Source: a virus
Length of the DNA: 22,030 bases
Direction: 5' to 3' (one strand)
IMG/VR virus record: IMGVR_UViG_3300027704_000189
Location: 1-22,030 of that record
How positions within the stretch are numbered: the first letter of the stretch is position 1; each line of letters starts with the position of its first letter. Shown piece by piece: positions 9,569-22,030 of the stretch. The position numbers were made by a program, and so were the translations under genes. The notes beneath the pieces are model-generated. The model was not told the origin of the DNA, did no database searches, and saw nothing but the letters and a program-made list of their open reading frames with translations.

Positions 9569-11764
9569 ATGGCTACTATTGCATCCCTTGTCCTACAGTT
9601 AAGCGCAGACGATGCGAAGCTGCAAAGAGACTTACGCAAAGCTAACAAGACAATCGCTAATTATGCAAAGAACACCAAGAAAGCTTTTGCAAACATTGCC
9701 AAAATAACAGCAGGCGCAAGCGTTGCCTTTGCAGGCCTAGCCAACCAGAGCATCAAGGCCGCCGATGAAATCGCAAAGTCCGCACGTAATGCAGGGCTGA
9801 ATACGTCCGCTTACCAAGAACTAGCGGTGGCCTTTGAGTTGGGCGGGTCATCCGCTGAAGCCCTTGTAAAGACTACACAGGCGCTTTCAAGACAGGTTCG
9901 CGACCTAGGCCGTGGATTATCTACACAGCGAGACGCTTTTGATGCTTTAGGCTTATCTTTTGAGGGGCTTGTTAAGCTATCCCCAGAAGAACAGCTACTT
10001 AAAGTTATTGCCGCTTTGCAAGGCATGGAAAATGTTTCTGAGCGCTCCGCTATTGCACAGCAGATTTTAGGCCGAGCCGGTAAAGAGCTTGGCACTATTA
10101 TGAGCGAGACCGCGGGGTCATTATCTCTTGCTAGGGACCGTGCCCGGGATCTAGGGTTGTCTATTGGCTCTGAATTGCTAGGAAACGCCGAAAAGGCTAA
10201 TGATTCAATGTTTCTTCTCGGGGAAAGTATTAAAGCAAACTTTACCAAAGCAATATTGGAAGCTTTGCCCGTCTCTGGAGATTATGATGATAAAATTAAG
10301 GCAATAGGTGAAGCGGTAAAAGCGTTAACACTGGCTTTTATTAACTTTGGTTCGTGGGTTGCTCAGAACTCCGGTCTTATTGCGGGGTTCTTTATAGCGT
10401 ACAGCGGGGTAAAAATTCTTAAAGGCGTTATTGCAATGGGTGTGGCGTTTAAAGCCCTCACAGCGGCCCTACTTACTTATCGGACGGCCATCACAGGCGC
10501 AGCTATAGCCCAGGCACTCCTAAACCCAGTTGCAGCAGCAGCGGGCCTAGCAGCCGCAGCAGTGGTAGCCTCTAGCGCTTATCTTATCTTTAAAGACGAC
10601 GCAGATGACGCTAAAGTCTCCAATGATGCTTTGGCGGACTCTTTGCAAAGGGTTGCCGATTTGGCTAATGGACTGCCAGTCAGCTCGATTAGCTCAATGC
10701 TTGACGGGGCTATTAATCAGACAGTTGAAGACGGCCCACAAGTAAAGCCAGCCGAAAGCCCTGGCAGCGCTTTAAACGAAGCTGAAGTACAACAGCTCAA
10801 AGACCATGCCGCGGCAATGCAAGTTATACATGATGCCTCTGTTATCCGTAACGAAGACATGTTAAAGGAACTTGAGCTTACTAATCAGCAGACAGCCGCA
10901 AATCAAGCGGGTGCAAGTGTTCTTGAGAAAACCGCGGCCTTCGAAGCGGGACTCATGGCCGAAAAAGAAAAGCTGGAAGCCAGTTTTATGGAGGGTATGC
11001 TTGAAGGCTCAAACCTGACAGCAGAGCAAGACGCCGCTTTACAAGAAACAACGCGGTTAATTGGAGTGCAGACAGACGCCTTTAGGGCATCAGCACAGGC
11101 AGCCGCAGACGTGACAGCAGCGCAACAAACCAGCTTTGAGGTTCAACAGCGTATTACCAAAATGAGCGCTTATGCGTCACTGGCAAGCGCAGCATCGGAG
11201 TTCTTTAATACTGTCGCCGAAGGCTCAAAAGCGGGGTTCTTGCTGTCGCAGGCGGCAGCCGTGGCCAATGCAAGTATGTCGTATGCACAAGGTACAATGG
11301 CGGCAACTGTAGCAGGAGCCAACACCACAGCAAGTCTTGCTGCTAACCCACTCACCGCACCGATTGCCCTTACAAGCGGCCAGGCAACCACTGCTTCCCT
11401 TAATACAATGAACACAATCGCCTATGGCCTATCTTTAGGTACAATTGCAGCGCAAACCGTGCAGGGGCTTGAAACGGGCGGATTTGTAAACCAAGGCGGT
11501 CAATTTCTAGTTGGTGAACGTGGCCCAGAAATGGTCAACCTCCCCAAAGGCTCGGCGGTAGTAGACAACGCAAGAACAGACCGCATGCTTTCGGGCGGCG
11601 GTGGATCTCGAATTGATCACGTTGTAAATAATATTAATGTTGGCTTTGGCCGAAACAGTCAATCAACGGCGGACGCTATTGCCCCGCGTGTATTAACTTC
11701 ACTAAGACAGGGCGAGATTGACCGGTCAGGTTTTTCTCGCATTCCTAAGAATCGGAGACTTTAA
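9569..11764 (+). CDS. Tail tape measure protein
   Basis: This 731-residue protein sets tail length and is ejected with the DNA. It starts with a basic coiled-coil region (SADDAKLQRDLRKANKTIANYAK). A helical stretch of the type A.EIAK.A...G.....Y follows (about 65-90). Hydrophobic Ala/Leu/Ile-rich segments lie at about 254-342, able to insert in the host membrane. Next is a long Gln/Glu/Ala coiled-coil region (about 385-530). The C-terminus carries GGFVNQGGQFLVGERGPE, then NLPKGSAVV (about 636-665), a hallmark of lambda-like tape measures. At roughly 0.15 nm per residue the length implies a tail near 110 nm. No lysozyme or peptidase motif is visible. AAAGGAA 8 nt upstream supports the start. 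Confidence 0.95.
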   Translation: MATIASLVLQLSADDAKLQRDLRKANKTIANYAKNTKKAFANIAKITAGASVAFAGLANQSIKAADEIAKSARNAGLNTSAYQELAVAFELGGSSAEALVKTTQALSRQVRDLGRGLSTQRDAFDALGLSFEGLVKLSPEEQLLKVIAALQGMENVSERSAIAQQILGRAGKELGTIMSETAGSLSLARDRARDLGLSIGSELLGNAEKANDSMFLLGESIKANFTKAILEALPVSGDYDDKIKAIGEAVKALTLAFINFGSWVAQNSGLIAGFFIAYSGVKILKGVIAMGVAFKALTAALLTYRTAITGAAIAQALLNPVAAAAGLAAAAVVASSAYLIFKDDADDAKVSNDALADSLQRVADLANGLPVSSISSMLDGAINQTVEDGPQVKPAESPGSALNEAEVQQLKDHAAAMQVIHDASVIRNEDMLKELELTNQQTAANQAGASVLEKTAAFEAGLMAEKEKLEASFMEGMLEGSNLTAEQDAALQETTRLIGVQTDAFRASAQAAADVTAAQQTSFEVQQRITKMSAYASLASAASEFFNTVAEGSKAGFLLSQAAAVANASMSYAQGTMAATVAGANTTASLAANPLTAPIALTSGQATTASLNTMNTIAYGLSLGTIAAQTVQGLETGGFVNQGGQFLVGERGPEMVNLPKGSAVVDNARTDRMLSGGGGSRIDHVVNNINVGFGRNSQSTADAIAPRVLTSLRQGEIDRSGFSRIPKNRRL

Positions 11765-16348: not shown

Positions 16349-18646
16349 ATGGCAAGATCAGCAGCAGCCTCCGTTACTATTACCGATGTTCGGGATGGGG
16401 TAGCGTTTAAAGAGGTAGAACTTTACAAAATTGATTCACCGTCAACGCCCCCCACAGGGCTGGGCTTTAATGTAAACACGGGAGCCGCCGCAGACGCCGC
16501 AACGGGTTGGACAGCAGTGGCCCCAACAGTTACCGTAAACCAGTTATTATACAGAGCAGTTCGCGGAGTTCAGTTAGACGCGGGCGCTACTCTATGGACA
16601 GCAAACCCATCAGAGGACTGGGTGATTTCTCTAGCTTCCGGCATACGGGGCCAGATTGGATCAGCGGGGGCGGCTATCGCCTTCGATGTAGATGCGAACC
16701 TTGACAGCGATGCAGATAAATATGAACTTATCCAAAGCTATCGAGGCGACAACGCCGTAAATAATGCAGACATATATTGGCAAGTCACTACCGGCCAAGT
16801 CTTTCAGTGGCAAAATCCCAGCACTACCGACCCAACTATACCAGCGGGCCAAAGTTTTACAGACTTAACCACGTTACAGGGTGGCTTTCTCGATATTAAC
16901 GGAATAACGGAAGTAGCATTTAGTCCTGGTGAAGATGGTAACATTGGTATAGGTGAAGGTGCGGTTGATAGTATTCAAGCAAGCTCCACACTTGCCATTC
17001 ACAATATCGGCATTGGTTATAATACTTTAACCTCTGCTGCCCTTAATGGTGAAAACAATGTGGCACTAGGGTATCAATCCTTGCTCCAATTAACGACTGG
17101 TGATGACAACATCGGACTGGGGTCTTATGCGGGATGGCGAATTACATCCGGTAGCGACAATATTGCCATTGGGTCATTCTCAGTAGGCGGCTTCGGCACC
17201 TCCTCCGGTGCGGAGTCTTCCGTAGGCATTGGAAGAGGAGCATTGGGATATAATGTAAACGGGACAGGAAATGTATCAGCAGGTAACTCAGCCCTAGGGA
17301 CTCTTTACGGAGGCAAATACAATGCAGGCTTCGGTCAAAGTTCAGGGGGTAATAGTTATGGGTCTTTTAATACCTTTATTCACAATAATATTTCAGGAAC
17401 AAGCATTCCTAGTCGTAAATCCAATACAATACAAATAGGAAACAGCGAGGCGCTAGACGTAAGACTCGGTAATACAGTAAGAACCGACAACCTTGCAAGT
17501 AATATAGTGCTAGGTGAGGGCGCAGGGGTGGGAGGTTTGCCCACGTGGGCTGACCGCGATTCCACCGCAACTAGCATAGTTTCCAATGGTGACTTTTCTA
17601 ACGGAACTACTGGTTGGACAAAATCGCAAGCTACCTCCTCACTTGCAACTGCTGAAATTACTAGGGAAGCCGCTTTTGGTTCTTTGTCTCTGGTTGATGA
17701 CTTCTTACAAATGACCCAAGGGACTTCACAAGGTTACGTTTATCAAACCTTGACAACGGTTGTCGGCAGAACTTACACGGTTACCGCAGAAGTGCAAACA
17801 GCCGTAGGCAGGGCGTTTAAGTTTGTTGCTGGAACTTCAGTAGGCGGGGAACAACTTGCAACGACTGGTTTAAAGTATAACTACGATGTTTACGCGGAGA
17901 CCTCTATAAGTTTTGTTGCAACAAGTACAAGCTCAACAATCTCTTATTATGGCTTCGGAACAACAGGCGAGGTCTTTCAGCTTGCACGGGTGGAAGCGGT
18001 CTGGGTTGCAGCTAGAAATACAATTATAGGTAAGGGAGTTGGAACTAACCTGAGCACGGGTTCAAATAATATATGTATTGGTACAGAGGCCGGTAAAAAC
18101 ATTACTAGCGGTGAAGATAACATTTGCATAGGCAGCAACGCCAATGGGCCTAGCTCTGGTAGTAATAATATCACTATTGGTAAATCTACTTTTGTGCCGT
18201 TAAATACCGCTATTAGTAATACTACTTCTATCGGAAATTCAACCGCAGACCGCCTAATTCTCAATGGAAGGGATGCGCTAACAGTTCAGTACAGTTCAAC
18301 GGTAACCCCAACATCTATAACGCAGTATGGTGATCAACAGATTATGGCTGCAACAGGGTTTGTGCCGAAAGGTCGAAAGTACTTAATCAGCTTTTCACTA
18401 GTTAGCACTTCTACTACAGTTATAAATTGTAAGTTAAAACGGCGAGTAGGAACAGGAGCACAGGAAACCATTGCTCAAATTGAAACCAGCAGTGCGGGCA
18501 CTAATTCCGCGTATTCTTATGAAGTGCAAGACGTTGTAAGTGAGTTTACAGATGACGTTGTGTACGCAGTAACGGGTAGAGCTGATAGCACAATTGGTAA
18601 CCCAACTAACTCAACTTTCCAACTAACAATTAAAAAGGTGGGATAA
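16349..18646 (+). CDS. Tail fibre with IG-rich head repeats and an embedded carbohydrate-binding-like domain
   Basis: This 765-residue protein is a likely trimeric fibre. Residues 1 to about 190 form the N-terminal attachment part, with a short GxxGxxG segment (GIRGQIGSAG) near 98. About 194-390 holds repeats of the form G.xNI.IG..A (NIGIGYNTL, NNVALGYQSL, DNIGLGSYAG, DNIAIGSFS), like the heads of trimeric adhesins. They close with SNTIQIGNSEA...RLG. About 409-553 is a beta-sandwich resembling a carbohydrate-binding module (SNGDFSNGTTGW through YVYQTLTTVVGRTYTVTAEV). About 556-644 repeats the IG pattern (NNICIGTEAGKNITSG, DNICIGSNA) and closes with IGNSTADRLILNG. The last 120 residues form another beta domain. 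AAAAGG 8 nt upstream supports the start. No chaperone-type self-cleavage motif is visible. Confidence 0.88.
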   Translation: MARSAAASVTITDVRDGVAFKEVELYKIDSPSTPPTGLGFNVNTGAAADAATGWTAVAPTVTVNQLLYRAVRGVQLDAGATLWTANPSEDWVISLASGIRGQIGSAGAAIAFDVDANLDSDADKYELIQSYRGDNAVNNADIYWQVTTGQVFQWQNPSTTDPTIPAGQSFTDLTTLQGGFLDINGITEVAFSPGEDGNIGIGEGAVDSIQASSTLAIHNIGIGYNTLTSAALNGENNVALGYQSLLQLTTGDDNIGLGSYAGWRITSGSDNIAIGSFSVGGFGTSSGAESSVGIGRGALGYNVNGTGNVSAGNSALGTLYGGKYNAGFGQSSGGNSYGSFNTFIHNNISGTSIPSRKSNTIQIGNSEALDVRLGNTVRTDNLASNIVLGEGAGVGGLPTWADRDSTATSIVSNGDFSNGTTGWTKSQATSSLATAEITREAAFGSLSLVDDFLQMTQGTSQGYVYQTLTTVVGRTYTVTAEVQTAVGRAFKFVAGTSVGGEQLATTGLKYNYDVYAETSISFVATSTSSTISYYGFGTTGEVFQLARVEAVWVAARNTIIGKGVGTNLSTGSNNICIGTEAGKNITSGEDNICIGSNANGPSSGSNNITIGKSTFVPLNTAISNTTSIGNSTADRLILNGRDALTVQYSSTVTPTSITQYGDQQIMAATGFVPKGRKYLISFSLVSTSTTVINCKLKRRVGTGAQETIAQIETSSAGTNSAYSYEVQDVVSEFTDDVVYAVTGRADSTIGNPTNSTFQLTIKKVG

Positions 18647-18648
18647 AA

Positions 18649-19305
18649 ATGAATTTTATAATATACAATGAAACCACCGGACGAATTGACCAAACGGGCT
18701 ATACTTTGTGGGAGGCTCCAGCGGCTTCCCCTGAGTATACCGCAGCTGAAAAATGCGTTAGTAATCTTAGGGAGGCACTTCAAAAAGCAGAAACCGAAAT
18801 TGAGTCTTTAACAAGATCTATTGAAAGCTTAATACCCGGCGGTGAGCCTTCCTCAGAAGAGACAAAAAGAGACCTTTATCAACAAGAAGTTGAAAGGGTT
18901 TCAGGGGAGTTAGTTACAGATCAACTTAATTTAGACGAGTTGACAAGAATCGAAGCCGAAAGATATAACGAAGCTAAAGAGGTCTTTCTTGCGTCATTAT
19001 GCACAGAAGGCCAAACAGCCATTGAAGGCATAGCTGACGCTTCAGTTCAAAAGGTTCAAATCTCAGATAAAACATTAATCAGCAGAAAGCCCGACCCGAT
19101 CCCGTTTGGCAATATCAACAGGAACCGCAGGGATTCTTTGTTAAACCTTTCAGATTGGACGCAAGTACCTGATAGCCCTTTATCCAGTTTAGCAAGAGAA
19201 AGCTGGAGGTTCTATCGTGTGGCATTGCGTGACCTCTCGGACACCGTGGAAACTTTTGAAACCGCGGAACTGAGTTATTCAGATTTACCAGAGAGGCCAG
19301 AATAG
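18649..19305 (+). CDS. Tail fibre assembly chaperone-like protein
   Basis: This 218-residue protein lies 2 nt after the fibre gene and probably helps the fibre fold or trimerise. Its C-terminus carries the hallmark RNRRDSLLNLSDWTQVPDS (about 161-179), then PLSSL and WRFYRVALRDL (about 192-202). This is the pattern of phage tail assembly chaperones (PF16778-like; the WTQ.PDSPL motif). The N-terminus (MNFIIYNETTGRIDQTGY) resembles the typical start reading fibre-adjacent proteins. Between them lie two charged helical, coiled-coil-like segments (about 33-60 and 74-115), longer than in simple members. AAGGTGG 7 nt before the ATG supports the start. Confidence 0.82.
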   Translation: MNFIIYNETTGRIDQTGYTLWEAPAASPEYTAAEKCVSNLREALQKAETEIESLTRSIESLIPGGEPSSEETKRDLYQQEVERVSGELVTDQLNLDELTRIEAERYNEAKEVFLASLCTEGQTAIEGIADASVQKVQISDKTLISRKPDPIPFGNINRNRRDSLLNLSDWTQVPDSPLSSLARESWRFYRVALRDLSDTVETFETAELSYSDLPERPE

Positions 19306-19387: not shown

Positions 19388-19981
19388 ATGCGACAAACCT
19401 TATATATCATTGATGATTTTTATGAAAACCCAGACGAGGTACGCGAGCAAGCTTTAAAAATGCACTACTTTAAAGCAGGGCACGGAAACTATCCGGGTGT
19501 AAGAACTGACCCTGTAAGTGAGTACGATTCTGAAATTATAAAGAAATACATTCAAGACAAGATTTTAAAAGAAGAAATTACCTATTGGCCCCGAGAGGCT
19601 AACACGGCTTTTCAGTTTACCACAGAAACAGATAGGTCATGGATTCACCACGATGCGACAACATGGGCCGCGGTTTGCTATCTAACCCCAGACGCTGAGA
19701 AAGAAACAGGGACGGCTATTTTTAGAAACAAAGAGACGGGAATACATTGGTGGAATCCAGACGATGAGGCAACAGAGTTTAATTATTCTAAAGGTCTGGG
19801 GAACCCCATGAAAAACGAATTGTGGGAGACTATCACCGAGGTTAGCAACGTTTACAACCGAATGGTTATCTACAGGGGTAATATGTACCACAGCTCAATG
19901 AAAGCGGGTTTTGGGACTTGCGTAAAAACAGGCCGGTTGTTTCAGACGTTTTTCTTTAATACGGCAGGGGGTCTAAAATGA
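19388..19981 (+). CDS. 2OG/Fe(II) dioxygenase-like protein, DUF6445-like (first of a tandem pair)
   Basis: This 197-residue protein looks like a non-haem iron, 2-oxoglutarate-dependent oxygenase, the class that hydroxylates amino-acid side chains or small molecules. The expected ligands are present: the HxD pair in SWIHHDA (His87, Asp89), the distal His168 in NMYHSS, and Arg183 in TGRLFQTFFF for the 2-oxoglutarate carboxylate. The start (IIDDFYENPDEVREQAL, then GNYPGVRTDP) and CYLTPDAEKETGT are typical of the DUF6445 group found in bacteria and marine phages. The substrate is unknown. It overlaps its paralogue by 4 nt (ATGA 19978-19981). AAAGGAAA lies 10 nt upstream. It is encoded between fibre genes and a collagen-like gene. 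Confidence 0.82.
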   Translation: MRQTLYIIDDFYENPDEVREQALKMHYFKAGHGNYPGVRTDPVSEYDSEIIKKYIQDKILKEEITYWPREANTAFQFTTETDRSWIHHDATTWAAVCYLTPDAEKETGTAIFRNKETGIHWWNPDDEATEFNYSKGLGNPMKNELWETITEVSNVYNRMVIYRGNMYHSSMKAGFGTCVKTGRLFQTFFFNTAGGLK

Positions 19982-20544
19982 GACAAGAACCCGAGGTTAT
20001 GGTTTTTGACAATTTCTTTCACGACCCCGACTCAATAAGGGCGGAGGTATTAGGAAGAGACTTCGGCACGGGCGGCAGTAACTTCCCTTCTCAGAAAGCA
20101 GAACCCGAAACCCCAGAGTATCAGGAAGTAATCAAAAAACACATTGAGAATAGAATTCTTGGGCGACCAATCAGCTATTGGGAAAAAAGTTATAACACTT
20201 GCTGGCAGTACTCGATAAAAGGCCAAAAACAGCCCGTACACCACGATCATGGAAAGTATGTGGCGATTGTATACCTTACGCCCGACGCTCCCGTAGCGGC
20301 AGGCACCGGACTATATCGGCACATCGAAAGCGGCATCTCAGTTTGGGATCAGGAAGACCCCGCCACGTATCCCGCAGCGTTGAACACTGGGGCCGATGAG
20401 GATACATGGGAACAAGTGGCATTTTTTGGAAACGTTTACAACAGGCTAATAATATTCAACGCCCAACACTACCATAAGGGCGCCGGGACTTTCGGCACTA
20501 ACAAAGAAGACGGGCGACTTTATTGCACATACTTCTTTTCGTAA
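19978..20544 (+). CDS. 2OG/Fe(II) dioxygenase-like protein, DUF6445-like (second of a tandem pair)
   Basis: This 188-residue protein is a diverged paralogue of the preceding gene, and both begin MRQ. It conserves the likely metal ligands HHD (His88, Asp90) in PVHHDHG, the distal His166 in QHYHKG, and Arg180 in GRLYCTYFF. It also shares VYLTPDAPVAAGTGLYR (compare CYLTPDAEKETGTAIFR) and NVYNRLIIF (compare NVYNRMVIY). The YPGVRT element of the first copy is lost (SNFPSQKAEP), so the active-site entrance and substrate probably differ. Both copies seem catalytically intact, so two substrates or a heterodimer are possible. Translation is coupled to the first copy through the ATGA overlap. Confidence 0.82.
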   Translation: MRQEPEVMVFDNFFHDPDSIRAEVLGRDFGTGGSNFPSQKAEPETPEYQEVIKKHIENRILGRPISYWEKSYNTCWQYSIKGQKQPVHHDHGKYVAIVYLTPDAPVAAGTGLYRHIESGISVWDQEDPATYPAALNTGADEDTWEQVAFFGNVYNRLIIFNAQHYHKGAGTFGTNKEDGRLYCTYFFS

Positions 20545-20564
20545 AACAAGTATCACAAAACCAC

Positions 20565-20582
20565 GGCTGCCCATAGGCGGCT
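20565..20582 (+). other. Small hairpin upstream of the baseplate-like gene
   Basis: GCTGCC (20566-20571) can pair with GGCGGC (20576-20581) around a CATA loop, with an extra G-U pair outside. No T tract follows, so it is not a typical terminator. CCCATAGG in the hairpin is repeated at the next gene's ribosome binding site (20591-20598), so the two may compete for structure. This is weak evidence. Confidence 0.35.
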
Positions 20583-20609
20583 TCAAAACACCCATAGGAG
20601 TTTTAACAA

Positions 20610-21089
20610 ATGAGAATTTCAGGAATTGAGAATTACATCGGCGGGGCAGATAATGTAAAATCTCTTTCACTAATCCAAGGAGAGCAAAGAGTACTTGGCG
20701 GCCAAATTTTAAATCCAGACGGAACACCGGTAGATATTACAAGCTTTGCAATCACAGCGAAGGTTGATTTTTACTTGGCGGATGTTACGGTAACATCCCG
20801 TTCAATGGCAATTACAAACCTAGTGCAAAACGCAGCCGCAAAAACCCACACCCTCGCAGGTATCAAAACAATCGCAGCGGAAGGTAAATTTACAATCACG
20901 GTGCCAAAAGATTTTTACGTAACCACGGCAAACGATCAAATTGAAATTGATACAGACTTAACAGTCAACGTGCCATTGGCTGTAATGTATATTGATTATG
21001 ATACGGATTCAGGTTCAACAGATTCCACAATCAGGGCAAGCCGAATGGTTTTAGTTATTCGTCGCGGTTCGCCATCGGTAGGACTATAA
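20610..21089 (+). CDS. Beta-rich baseplate/fibre accessory protein (BppU N-terminal-like)
   Basis: This 159-residue protein has the pattern of Ig-like domains at the start of baseplate upper proteins and related fibre adaptors: LIQGEQRVLGGQILNPDG, then TPVDITSFAITAKVDFY (about 22-57), followed by alternating strands and a final TIRASRMVLVIRRG. Such domains describe a quantity added to the tail, often just before fibre genes. It precedes the collagen-like gene by 10 nt, so it could anchor that fibre to the tail. AGGAG at 20596-20600 lies 9 nt before the ATG. No transmembrane or catalytic feature is seen, and the name is tentative. Confidence 0.55.
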   Translation: MRISGIENYIGGADNVKSLSLIQGEQRVLGGQILNPDGTPVDITSFAITAKVDFYLADVTVTSRSMAITNLVQNAAAKTHTLAGIKTIAAEGKFTITVPKDFYVTTANDQIEIDTDLTVNVPLAVMYIDYDTDSGSTDSTIRASRMVLVIRRGSPSVGL

Positions 21090-21099
21090 GGGGTTTAAT

Positions 21100-22030
21100 A
21101 TGTCGGATGATAATTTTTTAGTTAACCTTTCAGAAGACAGCTTTGAAGTAACTTTTGGAGAAGATACTTTTGGAGTTGAGCTTTCAGAAGACAGCTTTGA
21201 GGTAAATTTTTCAGAAGCTGGAATACAAGGCCCAATAGGCCTGCAAGGTGACATTGGTCTTCAAGGCGACGTTGGCCTTCAAGGTGACATTGGCCTTCAA
21301 GGCCTCCAAGGTGACATTGGCCTTCAAGGCTTAATTGGTCTTCAAGGTGACATTGGCCTTCAAGGTGCTATTGGTCTTCAAGGTGACATTGGACTTCAAG
21401 GACTCCAAGGCGACATAGGTCTTCAAGGCTTAATTGGTCTTCAAGGCGACGTTGGTCTTCAAGGTGACATTGGCCTTCAAGGTCTCCAAGGCGACATAGG
21501 TCTTCAAGGCTTAATTGGTCTTCAAGGCGACGTTGGCCTTCAAGGTGACATTGGCCTTCAAGGTCTCCAAGGCGACATAGGTCTTCAAGGCTTAATTGGT
21601 CTTCAAGGCGACGTTGGCCTTCAAGGTGACATTGGCCTTCAAGGTGACATTGGCCTTCAAGGACTCCAAGGTGACATTGGCCTTCAAGGTGCTATTGGCC
21701 TCCAAGGTGACATTGGCCTTCAAGGTGACATTGGCCTTCAAGGTCTCCAAGGCGACATTGGCCTTCAAGGTGCTATTGGTCTTCAAGGTGACATTGGCCT
21801 TCAAGGTGCTATTGGTCTTCAAGGTGACATTGGCCTTCAAGGCCTCCAAGGCGACATAGGTCTTCAAGGCTTAATTGGTCTTCAAGGTGACATTGGCCTT
21901 CAAGGCCTCCAAGGCGACATAGGTCTTCAAGGCTTAATTGGTCTTCAAGGCGACGTTGGCCTTCAAGGTGACATTGGCCTTCAAGGTCTCCAAGGCGACA
22001 TAGGTCTTCAAGGCTTAATTGGTCTTCAAG
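21100..22030 (+). CDS. Collagen-like fibre protein, 3' end beyond the window
   Basis: This frame starts at ATG 21100 (AAGGGG at 21088-21093, 6 nt upstream) and stays open to the last base, giving at least 310 residues. Residues 1-40 form an acidic N-terminal segment in which LSEDSFEV occurs twice, 18 residues apart. From residue 41 the protein is pure Gly-X-Y: 90 consecutive triplets to the window end without one break. Almost all are GLQ alternating with GDI, GDV, GLI or GAI, and only one Pro (GPI) and no Lys are visible. Gly at every third residue indicates a trimeric collagen-like rod, as in many phage fibres, though triple helices usually need more Pro. Two oxygenase-like genes lie upstream. 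The receptor-binding end should lie beyond the window. Confidence 0.9.
   Translation, partial: MSDDNFLVNLSEDSFEVTFGEDTFGVELSEDSFEVNFSEAGIQGPIGLQGDIGLQGDVGLQGDIGLQGLQGDIGLQGLIGLQGDIGLQGAIGLQGDIGLQGLQGDIGLQGLIGLQGDVGLQGDIGLQGLQGDIGLQGLIGLQGDVGLQGDIGLQGLQGDIGLQGLIGLQGDVGLQGDIGLQGDIGLQGLQGDIGLQGAIGLQGDIGLQGDIGLQGLQGDIGLQGAIGLQGDIGLQGAIGLQGDIGLQGLQGDIGLQGLIGLQGDIGLQGLQGDIGLQGLIGLQGDVGLQGDIGLQGLQGDIGLQGLIGLQ
21127..21200 (+). repeat. Direct repeat in the N-terminal coding region of the collagen-like gene
   Basis: The 20-mer CTTTCAGAAGACAGCTTTGA occurs at 21127-21146 and again at 21181-21200, a spacing of 54 bp (18 codons), in frame. It encodes the duplicated LSEDSFE segment. Confidence 0.9.
21220..22030 (+). 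repeat. Tandem 9/18-bp coding repeats with blocks of 63, 81 and 99 bp
   Basis: The 9-bp triplet unit (Gly-X-Y) is repeated 90 times in exact register to the window edge. A double GLQ-GLQ marks block borders at 21400, 21481, 21562, 21661, 21742, 21841, 21904 and 21985, so block lengths are 81, 81, 99, 81, 99, 63 and 81 bp. All are odd multiples of 9 bp. Three neighbouring blocks (21400-21642) are nearly identical, pointing to recent unequal recombination or slippage. Assembly across this region should be treated with care. Confidence 0.95.

Follow-up and report, generated by a model that had tools for sequence, protein, structure and literature searches.

Viruses that modify their own collagen have been described among the giant viruses. 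These viruses, and mimivirus in particular, hydroxylate and glycosylate collagen that they themselves encode, according to the portion of the literature drawn on here (PMC8968730). The mimivirus proteins L230 and R699, like the human LH/PLOD enzymes, are presented in the consulted part of another report as having both hydroxylase and glycosyltransferase activities on collagen (PMC9546862). Among bacteria, Bacillus anthracis has a prokaryotic prolyl 4-hydroxylase (P4H) and a glycosylated collagen-like surface protein, BclA, as stated in the same portion of the first source (PMC8968730). Cyanophages carry several 2-oxoglutarate (2OG) oxygenases per genome, as given in an extract of one study (PMC3037559). 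Here, we analyze the complete 22,030-base IMG/VR record IMGVR_UViG_3300027704_000189 (hereafter, the window) of a tailed phage, an uncultivated bacterial virus. In this window, two overlapping genes, OX1 and OX2, encode 2OG/Fe(II) oxygenase-like proteins of the Pfam family DUF6445 (PF20043), a family of unknown function, and lie close upstream of a collagen-like tail fiber gene.

The best explanation of this locus, which we hold with moderate confidence, is that OX1 and OX2 are active 2OG/Fe(II) side-chain hydroxylases of phage virion proteins, with the collagen-like fiber as the leading candidate substrate. It is based on the fold of OX1, the ligands of both proteins, purifying selection, and a conserved gene order. 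We infer that the two enzymes have catalytic activity and are produced together with the late tail genes, and that their substrate is a protein, possibly the neighboring fiber.

It is established that OX1 and OX2 are intact, conserved members of the 2OG/Fe(II) oxygenase superfamily. Both pass the PF20043 cut-off of 24 bits (76.5 bits for OX1, 41.0 for OX2), and they share 35% identity. The first-pass annotation of this DNA, made from the sequence alone, had read them as two intact paralogues that keep the HxD...H motif and an arginine, and the complete set is indeed present in each: H87-x-D89, H168, and R183 in OX1; H88-x-D90, H166, and R180 in OX2. In an alignment of 59 DUF6445 proteins, no variation occurs at H87, D89, or H168, and at least 90% of the sequences keep R183. 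This arginine, which follows the distal histidine, is presumably the basic residue that binds the 2OG carboxylate.

Structure prediction was made for OX1 alone of the pair. The AlphaFold2 model is of high confidence (pLDDT 93.5, pTM 0.90) and has a predicted double-stranded beta-helix fold of the 2OG/Fe(II) prolyl-hydroxylase type. In the VIA search, the best match was the Pseudomonas putida P4H (Z 14.7, rmsd 2.9, 151 aligned), whose two entries (PDB 4j25 and 4iw3, Z 14.7 and 14.5) were followed by PHD2 (Z 14.4, many entries); Z was at least 8 for 679 of the 999 chains, mostly 2OG oxygenases among the rows listed. Foldseek placed HygX first, with OGFOD1 and HalB among the other matches. The two checks that the annotation had proposed, a profile search of both proteins and a structure prediction, thus gave DUF6445 and a 2OG/Fe(II) oxygenase fold; similarity of fold by itself does not identify a substrate. 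Searches of PDB sequences yielded no match for OX1 and a best E of 0.5, against 2OG dioxygenases, for OX2, while the PDB profile search returned a putative hydroxylase (E 0.35) and an unrelated sterol-binding protein (E 0.26). In the viral library, OX1 was closest to a 585-aa Satyrvirus protein (BFVD A0A3G5AE29; 42% identity over 192 columns) named glycosyltransferase 2-like, which, because of its length and name, is probably a fusion of glycosyltransferase 2 (GT2) and DUF6445 domains in a giant virus. An origin of the pair by recent local duplication was unsupported: the tree, in which the forks are weak, places OX1 with L009/L048 and gives OX2 a long branch. The PHROG labels attached to the two genes (window positions 19388-20544), phrog_1644 "minor coat protein" and, more weakly, phrog_274 "DNA endonuclease V", look like misannotations of oxygenases.

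Profile searches recovered terminase, portal, capsid, and tail genes in the window; among the phage-record matches listed, the closest terminase has 39% identity. The block that holds the pair reads, in order:

16349..18646, + strand: fiber/spike-like protein, 765 aa (phrog_4636 tail spike, E 1.8e-13, and other structural PHROGs)
18649..19305, + strand: tail fiber assembly chaperone, 218 aa (PF16778 Phage_tail_APC, 46.7 bits, cut-off 26.6; phrog_4912 tail fiber assembly)
19388..19981, + strand: OX1, DUF6445 2OG/Fe(II) oxygenase, 197 aa (PF20043)
19978..20544, + strand: OX2, DUF6445 2OG/Fe(II) oxygenase, 188 aa (PF20043)
19978..19981, + strand: ATGA overlap of the OX1 stop and the OX2 start
20610..21089, + strand: 159-aa protein between the pair and the fiber gene (weak match to phrog_1084, E 0.0067)
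21100..22030, + strand: collagen-like tail fiber gene, open at the window end (PF01391, 151 bits; phrog_6320 tail fiber, E 3.9e-62)

The ATGA coupling is therefore as annotated, and "adsorption cassette", the annotation's term, is a fair one for a block in which a spike-like protein and a fiber chaperone precede the pair. The 765-aa protein is a candidate alternative substrate, and the 159-aa protein is perhaps a tail or baseplate attachment protein. No sugar-nucleotide gene was recognized beside the pair in the open reading frame (ORF) list or among the Pfam and PHROG profile matches in the window. A promoter and terminator scan found 7 and 5 sites, respectively, compared with 4.9 and 2.7 in shuffles, and was not used.

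The collagen-like gene has 90 unbroken Gly-X-Y triplets in view, the number counted in the annotation, in a run that starts at about 21220. The X positions are Leu (56), Asp (28), Ala (4), Ile (1), and Pro (1), and the Y positions are Gln (50), Ile (35), and Val (5); the sole Pro is thus at X, and Ser, Thr, Lys, and Y-position Pro are all absent from the 90 visible triplets. This composition agrees with the annotation, which held classic prolyl or lysyl hydroxylation to be unlikely, and rules out both for the visible window repeats. Collagen P4H calls for Y-position Pro, of which the window repeats have none and those of L007 and L008 one each, in genes that are incomplete; the collagen lysyl hydroxylases (LH/PLOD, L230) call for Lys in the repeat, and the 90 visible triplets have none. 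The contigs of the window and of its six close relatives (L003-L008) all stop inside the collagen-like gene, an assembly limit, and the fiber tip lies beyond each contig.

The linkage of intact oxygenase-fold genes to a collagen-like fiber is established in these close relatives. All six records hold both OX genes and, as the second gene after OX2, a collagen-like gene. Redundancy leaves three types among them: L003-L005, which hardly differ from the window; L006/L007; and L008. Three records share 97-100% OX1 identity with the window, and two agree with one another at 9995 of 10000 bases. Between the window proteins and relatives of 80-84% protein identity (L006, L008), the proportion of synonymous differences (pS) is 0.82-0.96 and that of nonsynonymous differences (pN) 0.09-0.13; synonymous sites are near saturation while the amino acids are kept, which indicates purifying selection on both OX1 and OX2. 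The 159-aa protein is 69-100% identical across the six records, and against L006 and L008 it is less well kept than OX1 and OX2. Four distant relatives of this protein (25% across some 150 residues, or 50% across 28) come without DUF6445; two of them are followed by a complete fiber gene, and neither of these genes has a run of six triplets. The sample is small, and the search for DUF6445 absence gave no signal in any control genome.

In L006/L007, a 293-aa gene is placed exactly at the OX1/OX2 junction, with a 4-base overlap on either side. Its product is probably a glycosyltransferase, judging from PF00535 scores of 21.3 (E 2.8e-4, L006) and 22.1 bits, below the cut-off of 23.3, and from a weak match of the L006 protein to the glycosyltransferase PDB 6p61 (E 0.0046). 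BLAST of this protein against nine other DUF6445-linked glycosyltransferase proteins found nothing below E 0.3, and its relatives amount to itself and one partial match in viral contigs and one phage record. L008, with an OX1 protein 95% identical to the one in L006, lacks this gene.

Neighborhoods were then compared across the family. The 101 DUF6445 records, to which one relative search contributed the best 80 of 458 confirmed relatives, fell into 55 clusters at 80% identity. Distance tests covered 50 of these (L023, L026, L031, L077, and L118 were left out), with random positions within the same records as controls; neighbor scans covered 108 of 109 adjacent genes and, as a second control, 82 of 84 distal genes (five genes away), long proteins being left out. 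PhoH loci were dropped as a control set, as all retained matches were close relatives of one cyanophage gene. GT2 domains are present in 24 of the 50 records, and in 16 they are fused to DUF6445 or lie within 1.5 kb of it, compared with 4.4 expected (none of 20,000 draws was as high). The nearest GT2 match is under the Pfam cut-off in L007, L058, L082, and L104; a stricter test that drops such matches gave 13 within 1.5 kb versus 3.9 expected. Adjacent genes (n = 108) matched GT2 (10), 2OG-FeII_Oxy_3 (8), DUF6445 (4), epimerase (4), and collagen, WbqC, GT11, and GT25 (3 each), whereas genes five away (n = 82) matched 2OG-FeII_Oxy_3 (4), radical SAM (2), GT11 (1), and collagen (1). In the distal set, GT2 is outside the 25 families listed, so at most 1 of 82 carries it; taking 1/82 against 10/108, the Fisher p is 0.025.

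Collagen was scored among the matches listed, with blocks merged by hand, and occurs in 14 of the 50 records. It lies within 5 kb of DUF6445 in nine (3.9 expected, p 0.0013) and within 3 kb in seven (2.6 expected, p 0.003). Of the nine records with collagen nearby, seven have GT2 nearby as well (Fisher p 0.003), and a collagen run is nearby in 6 of 13 clusters with DUF6445 ORFs of at least 300 aa, as opposed to 3 of 42 with shorter ORFs (p 0.003); both of these tests were picked after seeing the data. In the tree, the collagen-near DUF6445 genes fall in several separate places. These data support a tendency of the family to sit near glycosyltransferases and, less strongly, near collagen genes. 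The glycosyltransferase link is absent from the first-pass annotation and is drawn here for the first time. Because relatives often hold such enzymes beside or fused to glycosyltransferases, the OX pair probably decorates virus proteins.

Individual records show several architectures. L113 and L122 have GT2-DUF6445 fusions downstream of collagen fibers, each with an adjoining second 2OG oxygenase gene and a glycosyltransferase-like gene; the DUF6445 part of L122, found by tblastn, scores 22.3 bits, just below the cut-off of 24, and in L113 a head-tail adaptor gene follows. Such fusions also occur in L092 and L094, with no collagen run in view. Collagen genes stand beside DUF6445 in L104 (GT17 neighbor) and L115 (GT2 neighbor) as well, and in L110/L020 a long DUF6445 protein, TPR-like in L020, lies beside collagen and a GH130-like gene (scores under cut-offs). 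In Synechococcus phage DSL-LC02, a mannosyltransferase, a TPR-FkbM-radical SAM-SPASM protein, and DUF6445 adjoin two fiber genes with Gly-X-Y runs of 55 and 38 triplets. A radical SAM-SPASM gene is next to DUF6445 in a collagen fiber block of L120. In Pandoraea L124, a gene close to DUF6445 resembles cyclophane-forming peptide maturases, with a score below the cut-off of that model. Radical SAM and peptide-maturase-like neighbors of this kind hint at polypeptide substrates. In Syn9 and HTVC008M, DUF6445 is found among other oxygenase genes.

The following arrangements around DUF6445 genes, some of them in records named above, were also noted. Radical SAM-SPASM proteins adjoin DUF6445 in phage fiber blocks at L120:2021-3460 and L040:5806-7959, one of them fused to TPR and FkbM methyltransferase domains. 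In Pandoraea sp. ASV26 (L124:7992-10151), a 126-aa gene lies between DUF6445 and the radical SAM gene, and the locus may be a cluster for a ribosomally synthesized and post-translationally modified peptide with DUF6445 as a tailoring oxygenase. At L058:8001-10983, a hexapeptide-transferase-like gene separates two DUF6445 genes and a GT2-like gene comes after them. The contig of the DUF6445 gene at L126:8001-8522 bears the title Rhodobacteraceae but may be phage DNA, as this gene groups with its counterpart in cyanophage Sf-FS3 and the order of genes is similar.

A number of observations weigh against the explanation given above. Collagen within 2 kb of DUF6445 is not significantly enriched (4 records versus 1.9 expected, p 0.09), and 41 of the 50 records, many of them fragments, have no listed collagen match within 5 kb. 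Several tests were post hoc, on records that are related to one another, which makes their p values rough. Radical SAM is not enriched, with 2 of 82 distal genes and a place outside the 25 families listed among adjacent genes. The well-supported 25-row clade that holds the fusions is separate from the clade of the window. In S-SSM7 and Sf-FS3, DUF6445 lies inside long clusters of sugar-nucleotide and glycosyltransferase genes, with no collagen run in the examined stretches, and the tandem DUF6445 pair of Prochlorococcus phage P-SSM2 adjoins phoH; the 12 kb there contain no collagen run, although an annotated tail fiber gene lies about 5.5 kb away. Tandem pairs or triples in L050, L051, L075, L076, and L078 likewise have no collagen run in flanks of 1.7-8 kb, where other fiber types were not searched for. 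HygX, the top Foldseek match, is an enzyme crystallized with hygromycin B. The glycosyltransferase of L006 is under the PF00535 cut-off and its predicted model (pLDDT 43) is unusable, and the records of the window, L003, L004, L005, and L008, which are fragments, contain no GT2 match. Acceptors are already present in repeats of close relatives (1 Thr in 152 triplets of L003, 4 Thr in 55 of L008, and 13 Ser/Thr in 140 of the glycosyltransferase-bearing type L007), and fiber repeats beside other DUF6445 genes hold more Ser/Thr (L020, L052, L115). A need for hydroxylation to create an acceptor would therefore fit the visible window repeats only.

The annotation's proposal of a fiber-modifying system thus stands as regards the oxygenase fold and the collagen link in close relatives, whereas a collagen-specific role of the pair is not supported. 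The co-occurrence that it proposed to check holds in 6/6 close-relative records and, at 9/50 versus 3.9, as a family-wide excess, although tandem pairs also occur away from collagen. The case that it named as contrary, a pair with no collagen-like or fiber gene nearby, was encountered in the wider family for collagen runs (the five tandem loci above and P-SSM2), but not among the close relatives.

Other substrates have to be set against this background. It is possible, if rather unlikely, that the substrates are glycans or other small molecules belonging to the host surface or to a polysaccharide made by the phage, with glycosyltransferases as pathway partners and the adjacency to fibers reflecting a clustering of host-interaction genes. 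The clusters of S-SSM7 and Sf-FS3 fit such a role, as do the NDP-sugar epimerase-like and WbqC neighbors in L014/L022/L089, the HygX match, and the reading of pelagimyophage glycosyltransferases as O-chain modifiers in the consulted part of one study (PMC7029224). The window itself, however, has neither a GT2 gene that we found nor a recognized sugar-nucleotide gene beside the pair; protein hydroxylases lead its VIA list, though this list is swollen by many PHD2 entries, and some DUF6445 neighbors are peptide-modifying radical SAM types, albeit without enrichment. Modification of another protein, be it the 765-aa spike-like protein of the same block, some other protein of the virion, or one of the host (a translation factor, for instance), is quite unlikely. 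The second VIA match is in its favor, as the title of this entry gives the P. putida P4H in complex with EF-Tu; the collagen gene at a fixed place after OX2 in all six close-relative records, and the collagen proximity across the family, argue for the fiber instead.

To our knowledge, the substrates of cyanophage 2OG oxygenases are mostly unknown. DNA repair and 2OG/NtcA control have been proposed for them in the extract cited above (PMC3037559), and DUF6445 genes do occur beside thyX, phoH, DNA polymerase A, or thymidylate synthase genes. Given that the window pair sits in a tail block and that protein hydroxylases head the VIA list, it is very improbable that OX1 and OX2 help to modify or repair DNA or nucleotides, or to control 2OG in the infected cell. 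Least credible is that they are non-enzymatic virion components: the phrog_1644 label and names in phage records would suggest it, against a complete ligand set in both copies and across 59 sequences and an oxygenase fold.

If OX1 and OX2 are indeed hydroxylases of the fiber, they would be expressed with the late tail genes and would hydroxylate fiber side chains before trimer formation; in some relatives, a glycosyltransferase would then add a sugar, perhaps onto the new hydroxyl. Should the window repeats be O-glycosylated, Leu, Asp, Gln, or Ile, once hydroxylated, would offer the natural acceptor, since Ser, Thr, Lys, and Y-position Pro are missing. More broadly, tailed phages might run a collagen maturation of their own, in which DUF6445 hydroxylates Leu, Asp, Gln, or Ile and glycosyltransferases (separate, inserted, or fused) sugar-coat the fiber, in parallel to LH3 and mimivirus L230 but on the basis of another oxygenase family. 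We consider this pathway doubtful and on the whole unlikely, and the 13 Ser/Thr in the glycosyltransferase-bearing relative lower its probability. What recurs is a module of hydroxylase and glycosyltransferase, sometimes within fiber blocks, which points to a testable protein target. If the idea is true, phage fibers would bear unseen modifications, which could affect stability and host binding.

In the open-licence PMC text searched, the name DUF6445 was not found. Within the same body of text, of which titles and the starts of abstracts were covered, we found neither papers on hydroxylated phage fibers nor a description of a phage arrangement with DUF6445. The prolyl hydroxylases closest in structure, the P. 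putida P4H (4j25, 4iw3) and PHD2, share only 12-13% identity with OX1. The vCPH protein of Paramecium bursaria chlorella virus 1 (PDB 5c5t), a virus of a eukaryote, is likewise a virus-coded 2OG oxygenase and superimposes on the OX1 model (Z 13.5, rmsd 2.8, 144 aligned), although it is 12% identical to OX1 and the window repeats have no visible Y-position Pro. The B. anthracis P4H also differs in that its activity was shown on Pro peptides, whereas the window repeats have mostly Leu or Asp at X and Gln, Ile, or Val at Y. The two-activity plan of mimivirus L230/R699 and LH/PLOD is mirrored by the GT2-DUF6445 fusions beside collagen fibers. The target of L230/R699 and LH/PLOD, however, is Lys, which the visible window repeats lack, and the window OX proteins match DUF6445 only, have no fused glycosyltransferase, and come from a record with no GT2 match. 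Viral collagen modification is thus already known from giant viruses; what is new is a possible phage version with DUF6445 in the company of glycosyltransferases.

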